Shown piece by piece: positions 47,431 to 62,146 of a DNA stretch of 62,146 nt (positions are counted from its first letter, which is position 1; every line of letters starts with the position of its first letter). This DNA is from a virus: IMG/VR virus record IMGVR_UViG_3300021519_000009, positions 1 through 62,146 of that record. One strand, 5' to 3'. Made by a program: the position numbers and the translations under genes. The notes beneath the pieces were generated by a model that ran no database searches, was not told the origin of the DNA, and worked only from the letters and a program-made list of their open reading frames with translations.

Positions 47431-48378
47431 TTATGTCGAAAGATCATTTTTCCTCTCGCTGTCAATTTCTTTTGATAGCGACTCGACTATTTCAATGCGA
47501 CGGCCTAGCCATCTCATACAATTTACGGCCATTGAGTTACCAAGCGCCACATATCTGTCGGATTCCACATGCCCTGGAATGGCTGTGTATGCATCTGGAA
47601 ATCCTTGCAGCCGTTCGCATTCCATCGGCGTCAGGCGTCTAGCTCCAAAGTCGTCTATAATGACCGGGCGCCTTTGCGCCCGGAGAGTATATGCCACGTT
47701 GGCCGAAAGCCCATCCGGCTCATTAACGTGAGGCTCTAGGGAATAGACTGGTTTCCCAACACTGCCTTCACTTCTGGCGGCAGCTCCTTGTTCTGTTGTT
47801 CGGCTCGGAGCAGGATTTGGCAGCATGCTTTCTTGCTCAAAAAGTACCGATGCAGCGCGTCGCCAGTCTCCAAGATGTCCGACAACGAACACACGCCGGC
47901 GTCGCTGTGGGACAGCTCGCTCAAACCCGTCCACTCGAACGTATTGAGCATCAAGCACTCGGTAGGCGAACCCATACCCGAGTTGGCCCAGACCCCCGAG
48001 GAAGGCTCCAAAATCCCGTCCTTGCCCGGACGACAATACCCCCGGAACATTCTCCCAAATGAGCCATTCGGGGCGATAGCGGTCAGCGATTGCAAGATAA
48101 GTGAGGCAGAGGTTCCCCCGCGGATCATCCAATCCAGCCCGGAGCCCCGTGACGCTGAATGATTGACAGGGCGTTCCTCCGACGAGAAGATTGACAGTTG
48201 CATCGGGCCATTCCTTGAATTTAGTCATGTCGCCCCAGTTTGGAACGTCTGGATAATGATGCGCCAACACGCGAGATGGGAAATCCCCAATCTCGGAAAA
48301 TGCTGCGGGGCTCCAATTCAATGGAGCCCACGCAACACTGGCCGCTTCAATCCCTGAGCACACCGACAGGTACTTCAT
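47431..48378 (-). CDS. C5-cytosine DNA methyltransferase (Dcm type)
   Basis: 315 aa with all main motifs in order: KYLSVCSGIEAASVAW (I), GGTPCQSF with catalytic C71 (IV), WENVPGVLSS with E109 (VI), VPQRRRRVFVVGHLG (VIII), RRLTPMECERLQGFP (IX) and DRYVALGNSMAVN (X). The target recognition region is short. Start at ATG 48378 fits the family N-terminus; the frame is open to 48405. It follows the DGQ-motif protein by one base and probably shields phage DNA from restriction or marks it for regulation. The recognition sequence is unknown. Confidence 0.9.
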   Translation of the reverse strand: MKYLSVCSGIEAASVAWAPLNWSPAAFSEIGDFPSRVLAHHYPDVPNWGDMTKFKEWPDATVNLLVGGTPCQSFSVTGLRAGLDDPRGNLCLTYLAIADRYRPEWLIWENVPGVLSSGQGRDFGAFLGGLGQLGYGFAYRVLDAQYVRVDGFERAVPQRRRRVFVVGHLGDWRRAASVLFEQESMLPNPAPSRTTEQGAAARSEGSVGKPVYSLEPHVNEPDGLSANVAYTLRAQRRPVIIDDFGARRLTPMECERLQGFPDAYTAIPGHVESDRYVALGNSMAVNCMRWLGRRIEIVESLSKEIDSERKNDLST

Positions 48379-48379
48379 T

Positions 48380-49408
48380 TCACAATACGATCGGATATTC
48401 GCCATGCAATTTTTCAGACTGTCGCACCTTCTTGCCCTGGCGCCACAGGTTCCAGTATCGCAAGATCAGTTCCAATTTTTGTTCTCCATAGATCGGGATC
48501 ATAGATGCCTGACTGTAGAGAACCGTCTCGATCAAGGGGCTGTCTTCTTTCCCCAATTCTCGCTTCAATTTTGTTGAAGACCTGACTGTCATGTTTTCAC
48601 TGCGCATTTTGACCTTGATCATGTGATCTCGGAATTGCAGGATTGCATTGCCAGACGCCAAGTTGGCGCCGGTGTCTAGCGCATTAAAAAATTCACTGCA
48701 CGCCTTCTTGTCTTTCTTCGACAAGACCATCCACGCAGTGACTGCCGACGACAATAAATAGCGTCTCACCCACCTGTATTTGATGGCGTTGACGCCTTCT
48801 CCAAGAACGTCTTCATATAATTCGCATTTATCCATCATGTATTGGTTACTGACAACCCCGGATCCTTTACCTCTGGCATATCGACGATCAGGCGAATCGA
48901 TATAATTGATGTAAAGCGCCAAGGCGGCCGCGCATCGTCTCGTCTCGCCATGAGGCCAGCCAGTCGTGGTCATGATATCCGCCAATGTTCGGCTGTCCCC
49001 CTGATCAAATGATCGCATGACTGATCTGGGGTATCCAAACGCGGTCAACGACCAAATTGCCTTCTTCGAGTTCACGGCGGCAGCTAAACGGTTCTGGCCA
49101 TCCATGAGCGTGTCATCATCCGCCAGAACGATTGTCTCGCCATTTTCGATGAACAAATCGTTAATGATATCCTTGGCGTATTTCGCAACTTTCTTTTCAT
49201 GCAGGGGACGATTGTTTGGGTTCTTTTCCGTGTCCAGGTAATGCTTCGCCATTTCGGGCGTCCATTTGATTGGCACCGCAAATCGGCCAATCTTTTTGGT
49301 CAAGTCCTGGTAGTAGTGGATTTCATCCAAAGACCTGTTAAGCACCGGGCGATCAAATTTTTTGATCTCAAGCGCCTTTTGAAGCTTGTCTGAAAACATC
49401 GTAGTCAT
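48380..49408 (-). CDS. DGQ-motif (ParB/DndB-like) protein (342 aa)
   Basis: Contains RPLHEKKVAKYAKDIINDLF and LADDDTLMDGQNRLAAAVNS (about residues 94-113), the DGQ-x-R-L signature of ParB-like/DndB-like proteins that bind DNA ends or modified DNA and sometimes hydrolyse nucleotides. The C-terminal half is helical and unrecognised. It is common next to methyltransferases in phages, but its function is undefined. Located one base upstream of the C5 methyltransferase, so probably co-expressed. AGGAGATGGG precedes ATG 49408. Confidence 0.75.
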   Translation of the reverse strand: MTTMFSDKLQKALEIKKFDRPVLNRSLDEIHYYQDLTKKIGRFAVPIKWTPEMAKHYLDTEKNPNNRPLHEKKVAKYAKDIINDLFIENGETIVLADDDTLMDGQNRLAAAVNSKKAIWSLTAFGYPRSVMRSFDQGDSRTLADIMTTTGWPHGETRRCAAALALYINYIDSPDRRYARGKGSGVVSNQYMMDKCELYEDVLGEGVNAIKYRWVRRYLLSSAVTAWMVLSKKDKKACSEFFNALDTGANLASGNAILQFRDHMIKVKMRSENMTVRSSTKLKRELGKEDSPLIETVLYSQASMIPIYGEQKLELILRYWNLWRQGKKVRQSEKLHGEYPIVL

Positions 49409-51698: not shown

Positions 51699-53010
51699 GC
51701 GTTTCCATCAAGGCTTTGAGAACCTCCGCCGCGAGGACTGGCACGATGGCGTTCCCGGCTATACGCCAAAGATCGACACGGCCTGGGAGTGCGTCGACAA
51801 GCAGATCGGGGCCTAGGACTTTTGTGATGGCTTCTTTTTCTTCCGGCGTAATAGCGCCAAGGTCGTCACCGCCACCCAGCGATCCGGGAAGCCCATCAAC
51901 CAGCAGGCGAAGCCCGGATTTGGTGCGCCGCGCTTTGCCGTCGTGGCAGGCGATCCATTCGGCGTCGGACCAGAAAGAGCCGCTGTCGCCGCCATACGCT
52001 GCACCAATGGAATCCCCGTATCGTGCGGCCGAATAGTCCCGTTGCCCCGCGACGAATCCTGAACCGTCGGCGTCGGCCACGTCGCCGCCATCTGGCGCGG
52101 CAACTGATCCAGGCGCGAACGCCCGTCCTCCCGTTCCGTCGACATGCCGGGGCTGTCCTTCCAGTCGCGCGTCGAGGGCGTCACCCACGTCGCCCTGTGC
52201 ATCTGCGACGGCAGCGGCGTTCCGCCCGCTCCGAAGATCTGGTTCGGTCCGCCCTTCGCTCCGTCCGAGGCTCGGGGTGTTGACCAGTTCGCCAGATGCA
52301 GCATCGCGTTTTCCAAATTCAACTGCGCCTTCGATCCGTCCGTTCGCTTGCGCTGCGTCACCGCTTCCTCGAACGTCATCGTGCGCCCGCCTGTCGGGCA
52401 GTTCGGCGTCGGCCATCGCGCTATTGCCATCGCCGTCTGCAGTGAAATCCCTGTCTTGCTGCGGTCGAATTTTGCAAAATCCGGTCCCGCGTTCGATGAC
52501 TTCGGCGTCGGCCACGGCGCACCAGTAGAGCCGATTGCGGATGTGGGGGGCGTCCACGGCGCAAGCCGGAATATCGTATGCCCAGCAGGTGTAGCCTTCC
52601 GACGCCAGATCAGCGCGGACTCCGTCGAGCCAACCATACCCAGCCGCTCCGCTAACCTGTTCCCCAACGAGGACTCGAGGTCGAACGGCCCGGACCAATC
52701 GAAATAGGTCGGGCCACAGGTGCCGTTCATCAGCAGTTCCGGCCCCTTTGCCTGCTTGCGAGAACGGCTGGCACGGACAGGACGCGGACCAAAGAGGTCT
52801 GTCGTCAGGCCACCCGGCGAGGCGGGCTGCGACGGACCAGAGGCCGCCGCCTGCGAAGAAGTGGGCTTGCGTGTAGTGTTTGATGTCATCTGGATTAATA
52901 TCCTTGATCGAACGGCTTTCTACAATGCCTGGCGCTATGACGTTATGTGCGATCTGTTCTTTCAGGACAGCCACACAAGCCCCGTCAATCTCGTTGTAGA
53001 AGGCTGTCAC
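51679..53010 (-). CDS. C5-cytosine DNA methyltransferase, long phage type
   Basis: 443 aa. N-terminus FYNEIDGACVAVLKEQIAHN then HFFAGGGLWSVAARLAGWPD (motif I), SASCPCQPFSQAGKG with catalytic C80 (IV), GEQV at 116-119 in place of the usual ENV (VI), and APHIRNRLYWCA (VIII). A long variable, Ala/Asp/Gly-rich region with recurring VADA/MADA follows (about 205-370), then the C-terminal GRVDLWRIAGNAIVPVLAAE (X). The start GTG 53010 overlaps the previous stop (GTGA). A second long frame lies inside this gene (51813-52889). Confidence 0.85.
   Translation of the reverse strand: MTAFYNEIDGACVAVLKEQIAHNVIAPGIVESRSIKDINPDDIKHYTQAHFFAGGGLWSVAARLAGWPDDRPLWSASCPCQPFSQAGKGAGTADERHLWPDLFRLVRAVRPRVLVGEQVSGAAGYGWLDGVRADLASEGYTCWAYDIPACAVDAPHIRNRLYWCAVADAEVIERGTGFCKIRPQQDRDFTADGDGNSAMADAELPDRRAHDDVRGSGDAAQANGRIEGAVEFGKRDAASGELVNTPSLGRSEGRTEPDLRSGRNAAAVADAQGDVGDALDARLEGQPRHVDGTGGRAFAPGSVAAPDGGDVADADGSGFVAGQRDYSAARYGDSIGAAYGGDSGSFWSDAEWIACHDGKARRTKSGLRLLVDGLPGSLGGGDDLGAITPEEKEAITKVLGPDLLVDALPGRVDLWRIAGNAIVPVLAAEVLKALMETLDTPST
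51813..52889 (-). CDS. Overlapping frame inside the methyltransferase gene (WPTP-repeat protein, 358 aa)
   Basis: A 358-codon frame on the same strand, one base out of step with the methyltransferase and wholly inside it. It has recurring WPTP-type motifs (PWPTPKSSNA, ARWPTPNCPT, ANWSTPRASDGAKGG, ATWVTPSTRDWKD, ATWPTPTVQD). The DNA unit TGGCCGACGCC reads W-P-T-P here and A-D-A in the methyltransferase frame (plus-strand copies at 52069, 52405 and 52504). I recall database proteins with this pattern, which may be real overlapping products or persistent mispredictions. Start unverified. Confidence 0.4.
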   Translation of the reverse strand: MTSNTTRKPTSSQAAASGPSQPASPGGLTTDLFGPRPVRASRSRKQAKGPELLMNGTCGPTYFDWSGPFDLESSLGNRLAERLGMVGSTESALIWRRKATPAGHTIFRLAPWTPPTSAIGSTGAPWPTPKSSNAGPDFAKFDRSKTGISLQTAMAIARWPTPNCPTGGRTMTFEEAVTQRKRTDGSKAQLNLENAMLHLANWSTPRASDGAKGGPNQIFGAGGTPLPSQMHRATWVTPSTRDWKDSPGMSTEREDGRSRLDQLPRQMAATWPTPTVQDSSRGNGTIRPHDTGIPLVQRMAATAALSGPTPNGSPATTAKRGAPNPGFACWLMGFPDRWVAVTTLALLRRKKKKPSQKS

Positions 53011-58400: not shown

Positions 58401-58429
58401 TTGACAAAAAATTAAATGGCGCTTACTTT
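58401..58429 (+). promoter_or_regulatory. Plus-strand promoter of the RuvC/primase operon
   Basis: TTGACA (58401-58406), 17 bp AT-rich spacer, TACTTT (58424-58429). Transcription would begin near 58436, leaving a leader of about 20 bases before ATG 58455 with AAGGAAG in it. Confidence 0.7.
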
Positions 58430-58454
58430 TTTTATCTCGAACAAGGAAGCCTCC

Positions 58455-58922
58455 ATGATCATTCTCGGCATCGACCCCGGCCTGTCGGGCGCACTTGCAT
58501 TCTTCAATACCGACGCCGGCCACTTGTCCGTCCTCGACATGCCGACTGTCGAACTCAAACGCAACAGCAAGACCAAGCGCGAAGTCAGTCCAGCGCAACT
58601 CGCAGAGTTCATCCGCATGGGGAATGTCGATCATTGCTTCCTCGAGAAGGTTAACGCCATGCCCGGCCAAGGCGTCAGCAGCGTTTTTGCATTTGGGCGC
58701 TCGACAGGCATGATCGAAGGCGTCCTAGCGGCCTTGAAGATCCGCACCACCATGGTTCAGCCGCAAGCGTGGCAGAAGGCCGTGGGGCAGCGCCCCGGCA
58801 AGGATGGATCCCGCCAGCGCGCGGCAGAACTCTTCCCGGTCTACGTGAACCTGTTCGCATTGAAGAAGCATGATGGCCGCGCTGATGCGGCGCTGATTGC
58901 ATGGTATGGAGCGACACGCTAA
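58455..58922 (+). CDS. RuvC-like Holliday junction resolvase (155 aa)
   Basis: MIILGIDPGLSGALAFFNTD carries the first catalytic Asp, FLEKVNAMPGQG the Glu, and KKHDGRADAALIAWYG the last acidic residues of the RuvC/RNase H fold. It would resolve branched DNA during recombination and before packaging. ATG 58455 with AAGGAAGCCTCC is chosen over the longer frame from 58416, which would run through the promoter. Confidence 0.85.
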   Translation: MIILGIDPGLSGALAFFNTDAGHLSVLDMPTVELKRNSKTKREVSPAQLAEFIRMGNVDHCFLEKVNAMPGQGVSSVFAFGRSTGMIEGVLAALKIRTTMVQPQAWQKAVGQRPGKDGSRQRAAELFPVYVNLFALKKHDGRADAALIAWYGATR

Positions 58923-58988: not shown

Positions 58989-59621
58989 GTGACACACGAT
59001 ATAGCACGCCAGAAGAATGCTGTCACTATCTCTGGTGACAATACACAAAAATCAAAGTCGTCCTTGCTGGAATCGCTGTTCCCGCACCCCGGCCCCCCGC
59101 CAAAACGCCCGTCAATTCCCGAGCATCTCGATCGCCACCATTGCCAACACATCCGCAGTCGTTATGTTCGCCGCTTCTTCAGCAATGGCAGCGAGCGTTT
59201 CGGTATCCAGTGCCTCTCATGTGGATATGCGGACGTGCAATCATGGCTCGGTGCGAAAAGAGCAGCCGAAGTTTATCAATGCTCGCCTGAAGACTGGCAA
59301 GAATATGACGATGAATTTACGGAAAACAAAAATCATGAATTGCATATGTTTTTTTATCAAAAACATTACAGCCAGCAGTCAAAAACAAACGAGTGGTGGG
59401 TCTGGTATGGGAAATATCTGAAAAGCGCAGCGTGGAAGAATCTTCGCGCCTTGATACTCAAGCGTGATAGCGGCAGGTGTGTGATCTGCAAGGCCAAGGC
59501 TGATGAAGTGCATCACCTGACGTATGATCAGGTTGGATATGAGCCGCCAGAAGATCTTATTTCAATCTGCGATCGATGCCATAACACCATTCACCCATCC
59601 AAAAATTCGCGTGGGGAGTGA
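58989..59621 (+). CDS. HNH nuclease-like protein (210 aa)
   Basis: C-terminal HNH: LKRDSGRCVICKAKADEVHH then LTYDQVGYEPPEDLISICDR and CHNTIHPS, with the zinc CxxC pairs and the HH motif intact. An upstream zinc-binding pattern (HHCQHIRSRYVRR ... IQCLSCGY) is also present. It could be a homing-type nuclease or a replication nuclease. GTG 58989 has GGAG seven bases upstream. The stop overlaps the primase-helicase region. AT-richer than its neighbours, suggesting transfer. Confidence 0.75.
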   Translation: MTHDIARQKNAVTISGDNTQKSKSSLLESLFPHPGPPPKRPSIPEHLDRHHCQHIRSRYVRRFFSNGSERFGIQCLSCGYADVQSWLGAKRAAEVYQCSPEDWQEYDDEFTENKNHELHMFFYQKHYSQQSKTNEWWVWYGKYLKSAAWKNLRALILKRDSGRCVICKAKADEVHHLTYDQVGYEPPEDLISICDRCHNTIHPSKNSRGE

Positions 59622-59626
59622 TGTCA

Positions 59627-61924
59627 ATGTCATCGGCTGAACTTCTCACCATCTCAAAGCCAGACCCAGACACCATGCGGGAACATCTCGAGTTCTTGTT
59701 TGGCGGCGCTATCCACGGTTTTCAAGATGGCCTCATCGAACTCGCATGGACAGACCCCAGACCAAACGAGGCTGGGCTTTATCCCCTGCGCCACGCTCAA
59801 CTCTACGGCACTGACAAGACCGACGATCTCGTCGAGAAGGCCTGCAGGCTGAACGCGAACGCCAAGACAAACGTCTACATTGGCGCGGCGCTGCGACACC
59901 CGCACACTGCCCCCTTCGGGCGCACGACAGACGCCGACTTTTTCGCCGCCACGGCCATGTGGGCTGACCTCGACGACCCTGCGTCCAATTCCGAAGCCAA
60001 GAACCGCTTCACCGAGTGCCGGCCGTCTTTTGTGGTCTGCACCGGCCGCACGCCAACGCCGCGGCATCAATTGTGGTGGCGGCTGTCCGAGCCGGTCACT
60101 GACCCCGCCGAGGTCAATGCATCCCTGCGCGGCATCGCCAAGCGCCTGCAGAGCGACCCGACCGTCACGAACCCCGGCCGCATCATGCGTCTGGCGGGAT
60201 CGATCGCGTGGGACGTCAAGGATGGCCGGGTGCCGGAACTGACGTCTGTCGTGACACTCAAGACGCCCGGCGACCATTCCTACCACATCGAGCAGATCAA
60301 TCAGGCATACCCTCCAGACGGCGAGGGGCAGCCGTACAGCGTTGCGCCGCACGAGCATGGCCCAGACGTCGGCATCGTCAGGCAGACAAACAGTCTGGGG
60401 CTCGACATCGGCAAGGTCGTCGATGGCCGGGAAAAGTACATGCGCGACGTTTTGTGCGCCGTGCTGGTCGAGATGATCGCCACCACTCAAAAGGTTCCGA
60501 CCTCCGACGTCCTCTGCGAGGCGGCGTGGCCAATCTACGAGCAGAACACAGACCTCTCACGAGCGGGCCGCAACAGGCCCGAGTTCGCCATGAAGGCCAG
60601 ATCGACCCTAAACAGGTTCTCTCAAGGCAAGATCAAAGGGGCGCGAGACATTCAGGAGGCCACAGAAAGCTACCGCGCCAGGCAGGCGGCAGATGCGGCA
60701 AAGTTCAGGGGCGGGGAGGGCAGGTCGACCTTCTCCCCTTTCGACGCAGCTAATATAGACCTGCGCGTGGACCCCGAGACGGGCGAGGTATTTAACGCCT
60801 CCACCGGCCAGTCTGCGGCGTCTCCAGCAGACCCCCTCCCAGACGTCCCCAACATCACCGCAGAGGCCAAGAAACGCATCAGCCTCATCCCGTGGGGCGA
60901 CCTGGCTGACGAGCCTGTCAGGTGGCTTGTAGACGGCCTGCTGCCAGCCAAGTCCTTCTCTGCCATCTATGGCCGCCCAGGGTCTTACAAGAGCTTCCTG
61001 GCCCTCTACATCGGCGCAATGATTGGATGCGGCCGACCCGTATTCGGCAAAGCGACCGTGGCTGGCGACGTCGTCTATATAGCTGGCGAGGGCGGCGCTG
61101 GCCTCAAGCGCAGGCGTGACGCTCTGATCGAGCAGCACGGCATCACCGAGCCAGTCCGCATGCATTTCCTCAAGGCGCAGCTTAACCTGCGCAGCACAGA
61201 TGCGGACCTGATCGCGCTGCTGCAGGAAATGGCGTCCATGAATATCAAGCCGTGCCTGATCATCATCGACACCCTCGCCCGAGCCTTCGCGGGCGGCAAC
61301 GAGAACGCCCCCGAAGACATGGGCGCATTCATCTCGATCATCGGGGCGATGCAGGAGGCGACAGGCGCGGCCGTCATGGTCGTCCACCACAGCGGCAAGG
61401 ACGAGGCCAAGGGCCTGCGCGGACACTCATCCCTGCTCGGCGCAGTCGACACTGAACTCGAATGTAAGAAGACCTCGTCCGAGGAAAGTCAGGAGCGGAA
61501 AGGAATATTGTCCGTTACCAAGCAGAAGGATGGCGAGGACGGGTACGGGCTGAACTTCGAAATGGCACTCATCAACCTGAGCCAGATCGACCCCACCAAG
61601 ACGTCCCTGGCGGTCGTCCCGGTGGATGGCGACGTCGCCGCAACTGGCAAGCGCCGGCGCGTCACGCCCAACGATATGGCGGCGTTCAAGGCGCTTGAGG
61701 CGGCGATCGGCGAGGCCGGCGAATCAGTCGGCATCCCCCAGGTTCCGAGCGGAAAACGGGTGGTGAAGACGTCTCTGTGGAGAAATTTCTTTTTGTCCCA
61801 ATCTCTGGACGACGAGAAGGGCCAGGAGCAGGCCAGAAAAGCGTTCCGGAGGTCATCCGAGAGGCTTTTGTCCCATGGGACAATTGGGACACATGCTGGT
61901 TATTGTTGGATTTCAGAGGCTTAG
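59627..61924 (+). CDS. Primase-helicase (AEP-like primase plus RepA/DnaB-type ATPase)
   Basis: 765 aa. N-terminal half looks like an archaeo-eukaryotic-type primase: FFAATAMWADLDDPASNSEA with the DLDD metal site, RPSFVVCTGRTPTPRHQLWW, and GRIMRLAGSIAWDVKDGR. The C-terminal half is a RecA-fold helicase: Walker A GRPGSYKSF (about residues 446-454), VAGDVVYIAGEGGAGLKRRR, Walker B CLIIIDTLARAFAGG, and VMVVHHSGKDEAKGLRGHSS. One protein could unwind and prime phage DNA. ATG 59627 fits the GGGGAG at 59612-59617. The 3' end holds GGGACA repeats. Confidence 0.85.
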   Translation: MSSAELLTISKPDPDTMREHLEFLFGGAIHGFQDGLIELAWTDPRPNEAGLYPLRHAQLYGTDKTDDLVEKACRLNANAKTNVYIGAALRHPHTAPFGRTTDADFFAATAMWADLDDPASNSEAKNRFTECRPSFVVCTGRTPTPRHQLWWRLSEPVTDPAEVNASLRGIAKRLQSDPTVTNPGRIMRLAGSIAWDVKDGRVPELTSVVTLKTPGDHSYHIEQINQAYPPDGEGQPYSVAPHEHGPDVGIVRQTNSLGLDIGKVVDGREKYMRDVLCAVLVEMIATTQKVPTSDVLCEAAWPIYEQNTDLSRAGRNRPEFAMKARSTLNRFSQGKIKGARDIQEATESYRARQAADAAKFRGGEGRSTFSPFDAANIDLRVDPETGEVFNASTGQSAASPADPLPDVPNITAEAKKRISLIPWGDLADEPVRWLVDGLLPAKSFSAIYGRPGSYKSFLALYIGAMIGCGRPVFGKATVAGDVVYIAGEGGAGLKRRRDALIEQHGITEPVRMHFLKAQLNLRSTDADLIALLQEMASMNIKPCLIIIDTLARAFAGGNENAPEDMGAFISIIGAMQEATGAAVMVVHHSGKDEAKGLRGHSSLLGAVDTELECKKTSSEESQERKGILSVTKQKDGEDGYGLNFEMALINLSQIDPTKTSLAVVPVDGDVAATGKRRRVTPNDMAAFKALEAAIGEAGESVGIPQVPSGKRVVKTSLWRNFFLSQSLDDEKGQEQARKAFRRSSERLLSHGTIGTHAGYCWISEA

Positions 61925-62079
61925 AAGCAAATGGGACACTCGGGACACATTGGGACAAGTAGGAAAGTGTCCCAAGGACAAAGGCGGCGGCGTTGGGACA
62001 CTTGGCACTTGTCCCAAAGGCCCCCCCCCCGTAAGGGGGGGGCCTGAAGTGTCCCAACCCGATGTGGGCTTGACGTCCC
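61794..62079. repeat. Cluster of GGGACA/TGTCCC repeats (candidate origin or operator)
   Basis: GGGACA starts at 61877, 61886, 61933, 61942, 61952 and 61995; TGTCCC starts at 61794, 61869, 61968, 62010 and 62050; a CGTCCC lies at 62074. A perfect 16-bp palindrome, TTGTCCCATGGGACAA, covers 61868-61883. Neighbouring sites are often 9-10 bp apart. The cluster runs from the 3' end of the primase-helicase gene to the promoter of the gene at 104. This is the pattern of iterons at an origin or of a cooperative operator. Confidence 0.75.
62018..62045. terminator. Second copy of the poly-C/poly-G hairpin
   Basis: Same stem and GTAA loop as at 5-33, here with 10 C. It is preceded by TGTCCC and followed by another TGTCCC, so it lies inside the repeat cluster. 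Confidence 0.6.
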
Positions 62080-62115
62080 AATCTTTTTTGGCGTAGAAAT
62101 CTGGAGCAAACTGAA

Positions 62116-62146
62116 ATGGCAAAATCGAAGAACTTCCAATCCTCAA
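62116..62146 (+). CDS. Partial second copy of the 210-aa protein gene
   Basis: First ten codons (MAKSKNFQSS) of the gene beginning at 104, cut by the end of the window because of the terminal redundancy. Not a separate gene. Confidence 0.9.
   Translation, partial: MAKSKNFQSS

Follow-up and report, generated by a model that had tools for sequence, protein, structure and literature searches.

The window, by which we mean the whole stretch of viral DNA that was analyzed, comprises all 62,146 nt of IMGVR_UViG_3300021519_000009 (positions 1 to 62,146). Near its right end, an open frame on the plus strand (59618 to 61924, with the stop codon at 61922 to 61924) encodes a 768-residue helicase or putative primase-helicase (P0001), and a cluster of short repeats extends across the 3′ end of this gene. 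A gene for a 210-residue protein (P0002; 104 to 736, plus strand) lies 3′ of the array, on the other side of the contig junction. Genes for a Holliday junction resolvase and an HNH endonuclease are situated just upstream of the helicase gene (58416 to 58922 and 58989 to 59621, respectively), and the minus strand has, at 47434 to 48405 and 51816 to 52889, two genes that resemble those of DNA methyltransferases (PHROGs 116 and 1008).

The sole Pfam match of P0001 at E ≤ 0.01 is to AAA_25 (PF13481; E 2.7e-36), which is matched by all 34 aligned family members, with seven of the 34 matching Prim-Pol. The matching segment is a RecA-fold hexameric-helicase domain (residues 431 to 596; 60908 to 61405, plus strand), identified both by Pfam and by VIA-align, and among the solved structures compared, the helicase part is nearest to RSF1010 RepA (1g8y; Z 23.8, rmsd 2.4, 220 aligned; VIA-align). 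P0001 has both the AAA_25 domain and the RSF1010 RepA fold that characterize RepA-like (AAA_25) hexameric helicases. At the C terminus, AlphaFold models and VIA-align point to a winged-helix domain (residues about 684 to 765; 61667 to 61912, plus strand), the proposed reader of the repeats, with pLDDT values mostly above 90. The VIA-align matches of this region are to the winged helices of ORC, Cdc6, MCM, H1, and CRP (Z 7.5 to 8.9), and these model-based similarities indicate a common fold and not kinship. Foldseek alone gave no match for the winged helix at E ≤ 0.001, and a sequence comparison of the helicase–winged-helix part with PDB chains gave none at E ≤ 0.01. In some relatives, such as L001, L014, and L102, the helicase–winged-helix open frame is only about 390 to 400 residues long.

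The sequence-only reading had called this gene product a primase-helicase, and the helicase half of that assignment is borne out by AAA_25; the primase half stays putative, as the N terminus lacks a Pfam match and its structure is poorly modeled. By eye, the N terminus resembles an archaeo-eukaryotic primase (WADLDD motif). It is related to the N terminus of L016 (29% over 262) but has no clear relation to the same part of L028, a helicase relative with Prim-Pol in the N-terminal place; many other relatives have TOPRIM-like N-terminal motifs by motif scan, few of which pass Pfam. The N-terminal part (59624 to 60700 in the window) is exchanged among the helicase relatives, being of the Prim-Pol type, TOPRIM-like, or of the type common to the window and L016, and the primase part seems interchangeable before a constant helicase.

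All 11 exact copies of GGGACA/TGTCCC that had been reported at the end of the gene were recovered on recounting, and they lie within 61794 to 62055, forming the densest hexamer cluster of the window. Although most copies had been described as intergenic, and seven of the 11 are, four lie inside the gene. The in-gene copies span 61794 to 61891 and start at 61794 (−), 61869 (−), 61877 (+), and 61886 (+), including the expected perfect 16-bp palindrome, TTGTCCCATGGGACAA, which we read at 61868 to 61883. The intergenic copies span 61933 to 62055 and start at 61933 (+), 61942 (+), 61952 (+), 61968 (−), 61995 (+), 62010 (−), and 62050 (−). A degenerate twelfth repeat, CGTCCCA, was found on the minus strand at 62074 to 62080 by a scan allowing one mismatch. 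The regular 9- to 10-bp spacing noted earlier applies only inside two triplets, where the spacing is 7 to 10 bp, and the remaining gaps are 16 to 75 bp. We write the repeat unit as TTGGGACA.

When the hexamer was counted over the whole window, as the sequence-only reading had proposed, only this one cluster emerged: no other 295-bp stretch in the window has three or more copies, and with one mismatch allowed, TGGGACA has 12 sites in the array versus four or fewer in any other 300 bp. The total of 37 copies, versus 29.3 expected, is not an enrichment, and the signal of the array is its clustering, not overall hexamer abundance. A second proposed check, cumulative GC skew, does place the detrended minimum near the array (at 61,342, no more than about 0.7 kb away), but this is weak support only, because skew is confounded by gene orientation. 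There are no DnaA boxes downstream of 61500 in the window, and a search of the phage collection with the nucleotide region of the array gave no match.

The positions of arrays were compared among relatives drawn from virus contigs and species genomes (L001 to L023, L025 to L104, and L113 to L250, some of which are the same contig repeated), with one scan keeping the best 80 among 570 relatives that were confirmed. Eight phage records, of 1,270 that match P0001, were added as loci, and 24 plasmid records were outside the sample. Removal of entries that were identical, open-ended, or with less than 200 bp downstream reduced the 250 entries to 166 unique loci, and dereplication reduced these to 103. 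In 86.3 of the 103 loci (tie-weighted), versus 13.8 expected by position, the helicase gene has the densest 7-mer window of the locus at its 3′ end, and 84 loci surpass every one of 20 dinucleotide shuffles made from the same stretch. The winged helix is present in 15 of the 19 loci that do not exceed their shuffles, and its presence does not significantly predict an array (75/15 versus 9/4; Fisher p 0.25). One locus, L099, has most of its array beyond the tested stretch. In L036, there is a displaced array of eight CGAGACA copies at +973 to +1119 after the stop codon, not at the gene end.

The arrays of the 82 loci with at least five copies and a long enough protein carry 5 to 17 copies, and the repeat varies by family, with CGGGACA, CCGGACA, CGTGACA, CCAGACA, GGTCAAA, GTCCGAA, CTACAAA, GCGGAGA, and others represented. 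Across the relatives the sequence of the repeat changes while its place stays. Isolated phages are included, with CGTGACA arrays in Rhizobium phages 16-3 (15 copies) and RHph_X2_25 (16 copies), 12 copies of GCGGAGA in RHph_N65, and 11 copies of CTACAAA in each of the Roseobacter phages CRP-811 and CRP-823. An array after the gene is absent from three of the eight isolate-phage loci, those of MW202711 (L105), Mycobacterium phage Pops, and Microcystis phage Mae-JY30; L105, L110, and L111 have neither repeats nor origin-like arrays 3′ of the gene. In MW202711, with 43.9% identity in its best match to the window, there are seven copies of ACGTTCA inside the helicase gene, about 1.2 to 1.3 kb before the stop codon.

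The window array was also expected to straddle the contig junction next to a poly-C hairpin, and the hairpin (C10/GTAA/G8; 62018 to 62045) indeed lies within the array, at the overlap of the contig ends. It is enclosed by an outer 12-bp inverted repeat, GTTGGGACACTT at 61992 to 62003 and AAGTGTCCCAAC at 62047 to 62058, with one array repeat in each arm, and the 101-nt stretch from 61990 to 62090, folded as DNA, has a z score of −4.91. Bases 1 to 134 are the same as 62014 to 62146 apart from one C in the hairpin run (11 versus 10), such that a second copy of the hairpin and the last repeats, one C longer, is present at 1 to 70. With ends that overlap by 133/134 bases, the molecule is therefore a circle of about 62,013 bp, and its opening at the hairpin is probably an assembly break. 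Across relatives, an in-array hairpin with a stem of at least six is present in 53 of the 82 loci, versus 15.8 expected from shuffles with the repeats masked, and is absent by this strict count from the other 29. An earlier count, limited to hairpins whose flanking repeats were inverted and had no other repeat between them, had given 50 of 82 loci at a stem of at least five and 34 at a stem of at least six, but it missed the window's own hairpin and was replaced by the shuffle-controlled count. The hairpin could be merely a transcription terminator adjoining the array, being a GC-rich stem 3′ of a gene; this would be compatible with an origin, as it concerns the hairpin and not the repeats. 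We consider it unlikely, as the window's hairpin has no T-run after it and is inside the array, and as 43 of the 53 hairpins are flanked by nearest repeats in opposite orientations, although the two nearest the window's hairpin are in the same orientation.

Support for the identity of the protein that would read the repeats comes from covariation between the predicted recognition helix of the winged-helix domain and the bases of the repeat. In 50 of the 82 loci the repeat is readable as nnGACA (written x2-x3-GACA), and 49 of these were used for the covariation and tree tests, with L030 left out because its C terminus is out of frame. The last residues of L030 translate the repeats, reflecting either a frameshift or a sequencing error, and L031 and L032 match it in length and in the layout of the repeats. 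In the window the predicted helix is QEQARKAF, with R740 and K741 (codons at 61835 to 61840, plus strand) at offsets 4 and 5. Mutual information over the 49 loci is strongest between offset 5 and x3 (z 9.5), followed by offset 4 and x3 (z 8.65) and offset 4 and x2 (z 8.56), whereas the best of 414 tests with helicase columns has a z score of 4.5.

The pairs of residues at these offsets sort with the bases before GACA. Of the 28 GG loci, 15 have KK, seven RK, three KR, and one each KT, RR, and RP (the last being the out-of-frame L030); the 10 GT loci have RQ (eight) or RK (two), and the seven CG loci have QK (four), QR (one), or RK (two). The two CA loci have QR and RA, the single GC locus has DR, and both TT loci have RS. 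Glutamine at the second position is accompanied by GTGACA in eight of eight loci and glutamine at the first by C at x2 in six of six, and both positions lack glutamine in all 28 GGGACA loci. The recognition code is imperfect, and it is equivocal for R-K, the pair found in the window itself, which occurs with GG in seven loci, CG in two, and GT in two.

The association was also evaluated on a phylogeny of the helicase part only. Differences in second-position glutamine match differences in x3 = T in six of six independent pairs (p 0.031), and when taken from the base side, six of nine comparisons agree, three have no difference, and none is opposed; the corresponding test for the first position has about three of five agreeing and none opposed, and is not significant. 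Two pairs of near sisters illustrate the change. L242 and L244, both viral contigs, are identical at 266 of 270 helicase-part residues and at 90 of 108 C-terminal residues, with L242 having KRK, 12 copies of GGGACA, and no GTGACA, and L244 having KRQ, 10 copies of GTGACA, and no GGGACA. L029 and L153 (208 of 265 identical) have KRQ and KKK, respectively, and most of their aligned repeats differ in register by a G-to-T change.

These comparisons support the C-terminal winged helix of the helicase as the likely reader of the repeats. The sequence-only reading had proposed an origin recognized by the primase-helicase, and this emerges as the best-supported explanation, given the place of the array in most relatives and its covariation with the recognition helix; we think it highly probable that the array, straddling the 3′ end of the initiator gene, serves as a replication origin and that the helicase reads it through the winged helix at its C terminus. 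We infer repeat binding, helicase loading, origin function, and a role for the hairpin as follows. The C-terminal winged helix would bind the TTGGGACA repeats in cis, and with many copies bound, the hexameric RepA-like helicase would be loaded there. The hairpin may expose a single-stranded template, or a loading or priming structure, for the primase part, which is the least certain step. Reader and repeat would co-evolve, with two recognition-helix residues changing together with nearly every repeat of the array; as the helix change accompanies a near-whole-array change, replicon specificity would therefore be particular to each phage type.

The repeats could instead be an autoregulatory operator, through which the helicase or another phage protein controls transcription, be it of its own gene or of the one downstream, and not the start of replication. 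The repeats do sit between the helicase gene and its downstream neighbor, and covariation points to the protein that reads them, not to the purpose. Yet the array is over the end of a gene and not at a promoter, the 5 to 17 copies, often with a hairpin, exceed what an operator needs, and P0001 is of a replicative-helicase type; moreover, proteins of the same plan, SaPI Rep and pRN1 ORF904, are described as having an origin directly downstream (PMC7581432, PMC4234260). We regard this explanation as improbable. The sequence-only reading had offered a repressor operator as its alternative, and in a dispersed form this is disfavored and was rejected, there being only the one cluster in the window. 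A packaging (pac) or partition site, for which the large terminase gene about 3 kb downstream and the opening of the circle at the array might be cited, is more doubtful again; the repeats covary with the helicase C terminus, and the end overlap, one homopolymer C apart, looks like an assembly break. Least probable of all is that P0002, the other reader suggested from the sequence, binds the array: it is directly 3′ of the array in the window and many relatives, but by tblastn only 50 of the 165 unique loci have a relative of it, usually immediately 3′ of the array (e.g., L028, 49%, and L172, 47%), the repeat bases covary with the helicase C-terminal helix instead, and this second reader is not needed. 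P0002 has no match in Pfam, PHROG, or NCBIfam, and is a conserved, uncharacterized neighbor of putative origins.

Elements of this arrangement are familiar from other replicons. The oriV of RSF1010 has iterons and priming hairpins, which serve as single-strand initiation sites for the primase, and iteron binding, helicase activity, and priming are divided among separate proteins (RepC, RepA, and RepB′, respectively); the window also has a hairpin. One source mentions three separate components for RSF1010 (PMC4234260). Unlike RSF1010 oriV, with its separate RepC binder, the proposed binder and the helicase of the window would be parts of one chain, as modeled. SaPI Rep, an initiator helicase, uses its C-terminal domain to recognize iterons immediately 3′ of the gene that encodes it (PMC7581432), and as with SaPI Rep and its ori, and SCCmec Cch2 and its putative ori, the window iterons are directly 3′ of an initiator-helicase gene. 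However, SaPI Rep and Cch2 are described there as DUF927 or D5_N/Primase_Cterm helicases (PMC7581432) and the window protein is AAA_25/RepA-like, with a recognition-residue pattern seen in its family. ORF904 of the Sulfolobus plasmid pRN1 is reported to be a fusion of primase, helicase, and winged helix with a stem-loop origin just 3′ of its gene (PMC4234260), similar to the window's putative origin, with its hairpin, at the 3′ end of a winged-helix helicase gene. It differs, by the same account, in having an SF3 helicase and a large stem-loop without iterons (PMC4234260), in contrast to the RecA-fold AAA_25, 11 iterons, and short hairpin of the window. Vibrio PLE RepA is a RepA_N-type initiator that is not described as a helicase in its source and has semi-palindromic iterons of about 30 bp, and it shows that the DNA-binding domains of initiators and their origins can covary and be swapped (PMC8263062).

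Whether the arrangement is general is an evenly balanced question, and we offer with that degree of confidence the proposal that phages with RepA-like helicases include a large group whose origins are self-read by a simple recognition code, in which two adjacent residues of the C-terminal winged helix set the two bases before GACA and whole arrays switch in concert with the helix. A literature search, mostly of sources other than subscription journals, found among the papers listed no description of the array or the code and no experiment on binding or origin activity. If the proposal is true, close relatives would have mutually independent replicons, with the primase domain in front freely swapped, and we speculate that the driver is perhaps escape from nucleases or parasites with the origin as their target. 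For many uncultivated phages, origins may then be locatable, and partly predictable, from protein and DNA sequence alone. Near-identical pairs such as L242 and L244, which would represent a natural switch in origin recognition by one or a few residues, make the joint change of specificity by initiators and iterons directly testable.
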